Below the pieces are notes generated by a model. That model ran no database searches. It was not told the origin of the DNA and worked only from the letters and a program-made list of their open reading frames with translations. From positions 1 through 40,138 of the forward strand of contig CAIOCZ010000179.1 in the NCBI GenBank assembly GCA_903856805.1: a stretch of 40,138 nt of DNA. The letters are read 5' to 3'. Shown one piece after another: positions 18,069 through 19,140 of this stretch. Made by a program: the position numbers and the translations under genes. The DNA is from an uncultured cyanobacterium. Lineage in GTDB: Bacteria; Cyanobacteriota; Cyanobacteriia; PCC-6307; Cyanobiaceae. Position 1 is the first letter of the stretch, and the number at the start of each line of letters is the position of its first letter.

Positions 18069-18371
18069 ATGGCCCAGCCCCTGCCGGTGAGCCTGCTTGG
18101 TTATCTGGCAGCCAGTCTCACCACGGTGAGCTTTTTCCCCCAAGCCCTCAAGACCGTCCGCAATGGCGACACCAGCGGCATCTCCTTGCGGATGTATCTC
18201 CTGCTCACGCTCGGCATCGCCGCCTGGGCGCTCTATGGCTTGATCACCCGCGATGGCCCCCTGATCGTGGCCAACCTGATCACGTTGGTGCCCGCCGTGG
18301 TGGTGCTTGAGCGCACGTGGCAAGCGCGACTTCTCCAACAGAAGCGCCTGCGGCTTGGGCAGGAACGATGA
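18069..18371 (+). CDS. SemiSWEET sugar transporter
   Basis: 100-residue membrane protein with one triple-helix bundle. It shows the PQ motif (P24-Q25 in VSFFPQALKTVRNGDTSGIS) and the second-helix pattern YLLLTLGIAAWALYGL, both diagnostic of bacterial SemiSWEETs, which dimerise and move sugars down their gradient. ATG at 18069 begins just before helix 1; the longer upstream frame overlaps the previous gene and is not conserved. Its stop overlaps the ATG of crcB1 (ATGA), so it is translationally coupled to the fluoride-channel pair. Sugar specificity is unknown. Confidence 0.85.
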   Translation: MAQPLPVSLLGYLAASLTTVSFFPQALKTVRNGDTSGISLRMYLLLTLGIAAWALYGLITRDGPLIVANLITLVPAVVVLERTWQARLLQQKRLRLGQER

Positions 18372-18739
18372 GTGGTGAACCCCTCTGGGTGGTGCTGGGG
18401 GCCCTCCCCGGCGCCTGGTTGCGGTTCTGGCTGGTGAACCAGCTGGAGCCCTGGTTGCCTCGTCGCCACTGGGGAACGGTGCTGGTGAACGTTTCGGCCT
18501 GCCTGCTGTTGGGTCTGGTCTTGGGGCTGGAGGGCCGGGGCCTGCTGAGCTCGGGGGGTGTCACCCTCCTGGCCACGGGGTTTCTGGGCAGTTTCAGTAC
18601 CCTGTCCACCTTTCTGGCGGAGGTCCAGGGGGTGCTGGGGAAAGGCGAATGGGCTCAGGCGCTTGGTCTGGCGACCACAGCGGTGCTGGGGGGCTTGCTG
18701 GCCTTGCTGATGGGCCTGGCCCTGGTCTCCGTTCGATGA
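18368..18739 (+). CDS. crcB1: Fluoride channel subunit CrcB/Fluc, first of a pair
   Basis: 123-residue four-helix membrane protein of the CrcB/Fluc fluoride exporter family, which lets fluoride leave the cell passively. Landmarks: GAWLRFWL (R19), WGTVLVN (pore Asn N41) and the helix-3 break GFLGSFSTLSTF. In single-gene Fluc channels that break reads TTFSTF with two pore-lining Phe; here the first is Leu (L79) and the second is kept (F82). The GGxxxG part after the pore Asn is also altered (NVSACLLLG). It overlaps the SemiSWEET stop and the next crcB start by ATGA junctions. Pairs of half-degenerate crcB genes are known to make heterodimeric channels. Confidence 0.88.
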   Translation: MSGEPLWVVLGALPGAWLRFWLVNQLEPWLPRRHWGTVLVNVSACLLLGLVLGLEGRGLLSSGGVTLLATGFLGSFSTLSTFLAEVQGVLGKGEWAQALGLATTAVLGGLLALLMGLALVSVR

Positions 18740-19140
18740 GCGCTCCGATGGGGCGTCGCTGGCGGGTCCCGCGCGAACTGCTGCTGGTGGGGGCGGGCGC
18801 CGTCCCCGGGGCCCTGCTGCGGTGGTGGCTGCAGGATCCCCTGGTGGCCAACCTGCTGGGGTGTCTGCTGTTCGGTCTGCTGATGGGGCCCGGAGCCGCC
18901 AGGCCGCGGCTGCTGCTGGTGGGAATGGTGGGGTTCTGTGGATCACTCACCACCTTCAGCGGTTGGGAGCTCCAGCTTCAGCAGGCCCTGCAGCATGGGC
19001 GCCCCTGGAACCTGCTGGCCCTGCTGGGGGGCACCCTGGCCGGGGGGCTGGGGGCGCTGCTGCTGGGGATGGGGCTGGGACGGGGATTGGCGGCCCTGGG
19101 ACGTCAGGCGCTGAAGGCTTTGCGGGCGGGGATCGGATAG
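18736..19140 (+). CDS. crcB2: Fluoride channel subunit CrcB/Fluc, second of a pair
   Basis: 134-residue four-helix membrane protein, partner of the preceding gene. Landmarks: GALLRWWL (R29), VANLLGCLLFG (pore Asn N39) and the helix-3 break GFCGSLTTFSGW. Here the first pore Phe is kept (F74) and the second is Trp (W77), the opposite loss to CrcB1. This suggests an antiparallel heterodimer. The start overlaps the crcB1 stop (ATGA). The 3' end overlaps the convergent pgpH-like gene by 37 bp. I saw no convincing fluoride (crcB) riboswitch upstream of the cluster. Confidence 0.85.
   Translation: MSAPMGRRWRVPRELLLVGAGAVPGALLRWWLQDPLVANLLGCLLFGLLMGPGAARPRLLLVGMVGFCGSLTTFSGWELQLQQALQHGRPWNLLALLGGTLAGGLGALLLGMGLGRGLAALGRQALKALRAGIG

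Follow-up and report, generated by a model that had tools for sequence, protein, structure and literature searches.

Two overlapping crcB genes in the window (the whole stretch of 40,138 nucleotides that was analysed) most likely encode a single-barrelled heterodimeric channel, which would be a bacterial parallel to the FEX proteins. With a probability of about 0.6, we infer that their products, CrcB1 and CrcB2, form an antiparallel heterodimer conducting fluoride through one working pore, the mirror pore being vestigial. The argument draws on the residues at the pore positions, their alignment to characterized channels, the pattern of constraint across the family and the distribution of charge in the loops.

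The gene pair and its products

The two genes lie on the forward strand, directly after a third gene:

18069..18371, + strand: SemiSWEET-type gene (sugar-transporter-like), just upstream of crcB1, which it overlaps by ATGA
18368..18739, + strand: crcB1, encoding CrcB1 (123 aa), candidate first Fluc subunit, predicted N-out
18736..19140, + strand: crcB2, encoding CrcB2 (134 aa), candidate second Fluc subunit, predicted N-in

The crcB genes are arranged in tandem, with ATGA common to both ends, and they were the only CrcB matches (E <= 0.001) in the 3.0 Mb genome. CrcB1 and CrcB2 score 75 and 65.9 bits, respectively, against Pfam PF02537 (CRCB), both passing its cut-off of 32.9, and 59.6 and 40.6 against NCBIfam TIGR00494, both under its own cut-off of 80.45. 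Among named records, CrcB1 has its closest relatives in Cyanobium and Synechococcus. The AlphaFold models, based on 15 sequences each (pLDDT 89.7 for CrcB1 and 87.2 for CrcB2), present the four-helix fold with a broken TM3, and in both models the break, at residues 77-78 in CrcB1 and 72-73 in CrcB2, directly precedes the first Phe position. In Foldseek, the best 31 matches to each model were Fluc chains, with query TM values of 0.82-0.89 for CrcB1 and weaker ones for CrcB2 (0.60-0.73, best E 8.5e-4). The helix-3 motif GxxGGxTTFSTFxxE (PMC3755343) is matched in part by each subunit, which reads GFLGSFSTLSTFLAE in CrcB1 and GFCGSLTTFSGWELQ in CrcB2.

The SemiSWEET-type gene is possibly co-translated with crcB1. 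A homologue on the same strand, at most about 80 bases upstream, accompanies 26/131 Cyanobiaceae pairs (the window included) and 0/42 other cyanobacterial pairs.

The formation of a heterodimer, which a sequence-only reading of this DNA had proposed, appears likely in view of the tandem genes and the opposite charge of the loops. In the window pair, 3/4 of the loop Lys and Arg residues of CrcB1 are found in loops 1 and 3, while 5/6 of those of CrcB2 are found in the termini and loop 2. This opposite bias, which predicts CrcB1 as N-out and CrcB2 as N-in, is present in 118/131 Cyanobiaceae pairs. A precedent was reported by Stockbridge and coworkers in 2013: La1 and La2 of L. acidophilus were inactive unless combined (PMC3755343).

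Residues at the pore positions

The following positions in the window are relevant to the pores:

18602..18604, + strand: L79 (CTG) of CrcB1, first helix-3 Phe position, equivalent to Ec2 F80 and Bpe F82
18611..18613, + strand: F82 (TTT) of CrcB1, second helix-3 Phe kept, equivalent to Ec2 F83 and Bpe F85
18838..18840, + strand: P35 of CrcB2, at the triad Thr39 position
18955..18957, + strand: F74 (TTC) of CrcB2, first helix-3 Phe kept
18964..18966, + strand: W77 (TGG) of CrcB2, second helix-3 Phe position

These helix-3 residues are those that the sequence-only reading had given, and their coordinates and frames were confirmed. Its further statement that both subunits keep the pore Asn and the helix-1 Arg agrees with the alignment to Fluc-Bpe and Fluc-Ec2 (N41 and R19 in CrcB1, N39 and R29 in CrcB2). 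The Phe positions are not shifted, as helix 3 aligns without gaps, with L79/F82 on Ec2 F80/F83 and F74/W77 on Bpe F82/F85; a shifted alignment of this helix was therefore rejected. A single-base sequencing error is also unlikely, CTG and TGG each being two base changes away from any Phe codon. In the polar track of CrcB1, Leu101 occupies the Y104 position and Ala105 the S108 position, so that two polar-track groups are missing.

The meaning of this arrangement depends on the geometry of the channel. Last and coworkers reported in 2016 that the two Phe of one domain serve different pores, each pore combining a Phe80 and a Phe83 that come from different domains (PMC4969038). In 2017, Berbasova and coworkers assigned the counterparts of T39, E88 and the polar track in a given domain to the pore that holds the second Phe of that domain (PMC5417652). 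By this published assignment, pore 1, the candidate working pore, would contain T37, N41, F82, E85, L101 and A105 of CrcB1 plus F74 of CrcB2, and pore 2 would contain P35, N39, W77, Q80, L96 and T100 of CrcB2 plus L79 of CrcB1. Because each pore pairs the first Phe of one subunit with the second of the other, L79 and W77 are both assigned to the same pore (PMC4969038), and the other pore keeps its Phe pair. The published geometry thus supports the earlier claim that only one of the two pores has a full Phe lining, with pore 2 keeping neither Phe.

Several mutants are informative in this regard. Concatemers in which both Phe of a single pore were mutated remain functional, with an approximately 2.5-fold lower conductance (PMC4969038), and neither F80L nor F83W is active in the Ec2 homodimer (PMC5636608, Table 1). 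These Ec2 results contrast with a compiled table (PMC8315801, Table 4), in which Bpe F82I and F85I are listed as still permeating, as are N43D (Stockbridge 2015) and N43S, and F82L is not. E88Q conducts at about one fifth, and T39N is dead in Bpe.

Tandem pairs across the Cyanobiaceae

CrcB was detected in at least 337/400 Cyanobiaceae genomes, nearly all of which had two matches among the matches listed, and a further search of 50 genomes from 47 genera served to spread the sample. The fetched loci provided 131 distinct Cyanobiaceae tandem pairs, identical pairs being counted once and L001 being the window; the full set amounts to 303 tandem pairs, or 606 subunits, and its first-Phe column has no gaps. 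The residues in the 131 Cyanobiaceae pairs were distributed as follows, the gaps at T39 and N43 coming from the CrcB1 of L131 and L186, which are broken or cut:

T39 position: CrcB1 T 107, I 21, V 1, gap 2; CrcB2 T 3, D 59, N 41, others 28 (Asp/Asn in 100/131)
N43 position: CrcB1 N 129, gap 2; CrcB2 N 108, S 22, G 1
First Phe: CrcB1 F 127, L 2, Y 2; CrcB2 F 126, Y 5
Second Phe: CrcB1 F 105, L 14, W 12; CrcB2 W 106, F 23, L 1, V 1
E88 position: CrcB1 E 90, Q 25, D 14, A 1, N 1 (E/D/Q in 129/131); CrcB2 E 26, D 30, Q 18, others 57 (E/D/Q in 74/131)
Y104 position: CrcB1 Leu in 87/131, the family norm
S108 position: CrcB1 Ser 106, Val 22, Ala 2 (the window and L203)

The idea that the two losses in the window arose as one event is not borne out by these figures. 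W77 appears to be an old and common trait of the Cyanobiaceae (106/131), whereas L79 looks like a rare and recent change, Leu being found at the first Phe position in 3/606 subunits and, within the Cyanobiaceae, only in the window and L080. Any residue other than Phe or Tyr is rare at this position (7/606 subunits: Leu 3, Met 3, Trp 1). Since the nearest sampled pair is only 59% identical, the L79 change can be dated only coarsely.

Likewise, a missing second Phe does not by itself mark a dead pore. Tyr occupies this position in 42/42 first genes of the other cyanobacterial pairs and in 23/34 unpaired other-cyanobacterial CrcBs (some of which could have a partner elsewhere), which indicates that many Flucs can do without the second Phe. 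In 12 Cyanobiaceae pairs (L011, L017, L019, L021, L024-L029, L032 and L179), Trp is present there in both subunits, which leaves the two pores without a Phe pair. On both sides, the 42 other cyanobacterial pairs retain T39 (Ser in one case), N43, an acidic residue (E/D) at 88 and an aromatic one (Tyr/Phe) at 104.

Two further observations concern individual lineages. A single genus with small genomes accounts for 23/131 pairs (L123, L200, L201, L203-L205 and L208-L224) in which the pore Asn of CrcB2 is replaced by Ser (22) or Gly (1) and its Glu88 position is occupied by Phe, Val, Leu or Tyr. CrcB1 keeps its Asn in these pairs; indeed, no CrcB1 among the 131 pairs has Ser or Gly there (2 gaps). 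L131 presents an interrupted crcB1 (a match with one stop and a second partial match) beside an open crcB2.

Constraint on the two subunits

Changes per column were counted on one FastTree of the concatenated Cyanobiaceae pairs (129 tips). The mean number per column was alike in both proteins (30.3 for CrcB1 vs 28.8 for CrcB2), but the pore positions differed: CrcB1 and CrcB2 underwent 12 vs 32 changes at T39, 16 vs 48 at E88, 4 vs 29 at S108 and 22 vs 29 at Y104. When 101 well-covered columns were ranked by CrcB2 excess, E88 was first, S108 fourth and T39 sixth, with Y104 outside the top twelve; in CrcB2, the rates of change at E88, Y104 and S108 equal or exceed the median of that protein. 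For the eight own-side pore positions (39, 43, 85, 88, 104, 108, 112 and 116), the mean CrcB2 excess was 10.5 (P = 0.007 vs random columns); it gave P = 0.010 with the first Phe added crosswise and 0.002 for the triad alone, these P values treating columns as independent, which is not fully true. The value for T39, E88, Y104 and S108 (P = 9e-5) concerns positions picked after the pattern had been seen, and S112 and T116 display no CrcB2 excess. Taken together, the own-side pore residues of CrcB2 appear to have lost constraint relative to those of CrcB1, despite equal overall rates.

The crosswise counterpart of this pattern, a family-wide relaxation of the first Phe of CrcB1, was not seen in the 131 Cyanobiaceae pairs (Phe in 127/131); the first Phe changed 4 times in CrcB1 vs 3 in CrcB2, and the second Phe position 3 times in CrcB2, where it is mostly Trp, vs 6 in CrcB1. 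The crosswise Phe prediction thus holds in the window and a few other pairs, and not across the Cyanobiaceae. Because CrcB1 conserves its first Phe and CrcB2 its N43, and the second position of CrcB2 changes less than that of CrcB1, the core of pore 2 seems to be under constraint, perhaps kept for packing or as a plug.

Patterns of Phe loss beyond the family

A single first Phe is missing in 33 pairs. In 16 of them, the second Phe is absent from the partner subunit and present in the affected one, and in 2 the opposite holds. A wider same-pore score gave 19 vs 8 in raw counts and 7 vs 4, with 4 ties, after clustering (p 0.55). The association of Phe losses (any non-Phe) within the same pore, uncorrected for kinship in every group, reached an OR of 3.5 in the Cyanobiaceae (p 0.17), 2.7 in Actinomycetota (p 0.09, with a negative same-subunit association at p 7e-6) and 2.0 in all pairs outside the Cyanobiaceae (p 0.12); Bacillota, with 0/5, stand against it. 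Pairs from Actinomycetota and Bacillota were partly picked by eye among the matches listed and do not constitute a census.

Six Actinomycetota pairs exhibit a crosswise loss of the Tyr/Ala or Tyr/Thr kind (L185, L187, L189, L191, L288 and L294). In L185, L187 and L189, one pore has Tyr/Ala and its counterpart Phe/Phe; L288 and L294 show this in the opposite sense, and the other pore of L191 has Tyr/Phe.

A rule by which the kept pore always has one orientation was considered and not seen by the Phe criterion: in clusters at 50% identity, the kept side was N-in vs N-out in 8 vs 4 Actinomycetota and 5 vs 6 Bacillota. Used alone, this criterion misjudges some pairs: in L213 and L224, it counts the CrcB2-side pore as the kept one despite a Ser replacing the pore Asn of CrcB2.

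A probable single working pore and the alternative explanations

These observations could be integrated in a model in which the working pore would be formed by T37, N41, F82, E85 and helix 4 of CrcB1 together with Phe74 of CrcB2, and the vestigial mirror pore by P35, N39, W77, Q80 and L96 of CrcB2 together with Leu79 of CrcB1. We propose that, once the gene pair was fixed, one pore would have been enough, and for this reason the triad and polar-track positions of CrcB2 would have been freed from constraint in the Cyanobiaceae; in the window lineage, the first Phe of the mirror pore would have been lost as well. The model is favored by the activity of the concatemers, the behavior of Ec2 F80L and F83W, the FEX pattern, the loss of constraint in CrcB2, the charge bias and the 23 pairs with Ser or Gly at the pore Asn of CrcB2. 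Other facts count against it. The first Phe of CrcB1, N43 of CrcB2 (Asn in 108/131) and the Trp position are conserved; Bpe F82I, F85I, N43D and N43S are listed as permeating, and E88Q retains some conduction; and co-loss within the same pore is only suggestive after clustering. In addition, the candidate working pore is itself non-canonical, with Leu at Y104 in most CrcB1 and, in the window, Ala at S108. The one-sided loss of triad and polar-track residues is thus a family-wide excess on the CrcB2 side, and in the window the CrcB1 side also lacks two polar-track groups.

A different account of the conserved core, to be taken as tentative, is that the Cyanobiaceae have a single-barrelled two-gene Fluc independent of FEX whose second pore did not simply drift but is actively closed, Trp85 and Asp/Asn39 of CrcB2 having been selected as a plug. 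Such a plug would keep the core packed, and most species would consequently still have the first Phe of CrcB1, its loss being confined to scattered lineages like that of the window.

It is unlikely that both pores conduct. In that case, the CrcB2-side pore would rely on another chemistry, in which Trp stands in for the second Phe, and Asp or Asn (Pro in the window) for the triad Thr. The predominance of Trp and of Asp/Asn at these CrcB2 positions does look as if selected, and non-Phe residues are common at the second position, as the unpaired CrcBs with Tyr and the Trp/Trp pairs illustrate. Moreover, the M. tuberculosis pair has Met and Trp there, discussed as a possible new coordination chemistry (PMC5636608), and the permeating F82I and F85I of Bpe (PMC8315801, Table 4) are in line with such tolerance. 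However, E88, Y104 and S108 of CrcB2 change as freely as, or more freely than, the median column, T39N is dead in Bpe, and Leu79 of the window removes the other Phe as well, a change that kills Ec2 as F80L (PMC5636608).

A decay of the whole channel in this genome, leaving it a weak or non-fluoride role, seems quite unlikely. It would explain why one pore carries Leu79, Trp77 and Pro35 and the other Leu101 and Ala105, this Ala being shared with only one other CrcB1 in a column that is Ser in 106/131. Nevertheless, both frames are intact and overlapping, T37, N41, F82, E85 and F74 are kept, and Leu at Y104 is the norm of the family. A search for fluoride riboswitches yielded none in the window at the gathering score and none in the genome among the 150 scored of 639 candidates, while the Synechococcus elongatus control has one; this absence, though it might suggest decay, says nothing on function.

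Finally, it is very improbable that CrcB1 and CrcB2 do not assemble together, being unequal paralogues or homodimers of their own. For S. sanguinis, a partial recovery of resistance was stated for each crcB by itself (PMC5100911, data not given there), but the charge bias is opposite in 118/131 pairs, La1 and La2 are active only when combined (PMC3755343), and a CrcB2 homodimer would carry Pro35, Trp77 and Gln80 in both pores, as a CrcB1 homodimer would carry Leu79.

Comparison with known systems

The window pair shares with the homodimeric Fluc-Ec2 and Fluc-Bpe the fold, the TM3 break, the Asn and the helix-1 Arg, although those channels have two identical working pores and both Phe in one subunit. 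With the heterodimeric bacterial Flucs (La1/La2, S. aureus, M. tuberculosis and S. sanguinis), it has in common the tandem crcB genes, the opposite charge bias and the Fluc fold. However, the La and Sa pairs keep 3/4 central Phe and the Mt pair loses both second ones (PMC5636608), whereas the window pair keeps 2/4, with both losses in one pore, and its CrcB2 also lacks the triad Thr.

For such heterodimers, Last and coworkers already proposed in 2017 the drift of one pore (PMC5636608). The idea of losing one pore is therefore in print, and what is new here is the evidence across the Cyanobiaceae, with its exceptions; among the papers listed in searches of the open PMC literature, no description of cyanobacterial Fluc pairs was found. 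The Cyanobiaceae pairs are natural candidate single-pore channels on which to test that proposal and to learn what a second pore is for, and they could distinguish residues retained for structural reasons, such as the first Phe and the Asn of the putatively decayed pore, from residues needed for conduction.

In yeast FEX, the central residues are F96/M99 and I327/F330, a crosswise arrangement with one functional pore (PMC5417652). In FEX, two domains are fused through a linker helix, unlike the two genes described here, and single-pore function has been demonstrated, whereas that of the window pair is predicted, with a candidate working side that also lacks two polar-track groups. Yet the window pair resembles FEX (yeast Fex1p and plants) in the crosswise Phe, in a possible one-sided loss of triad and polar-track residues and in the pore Asn, which the degenerate pore retains (PMC5417652).
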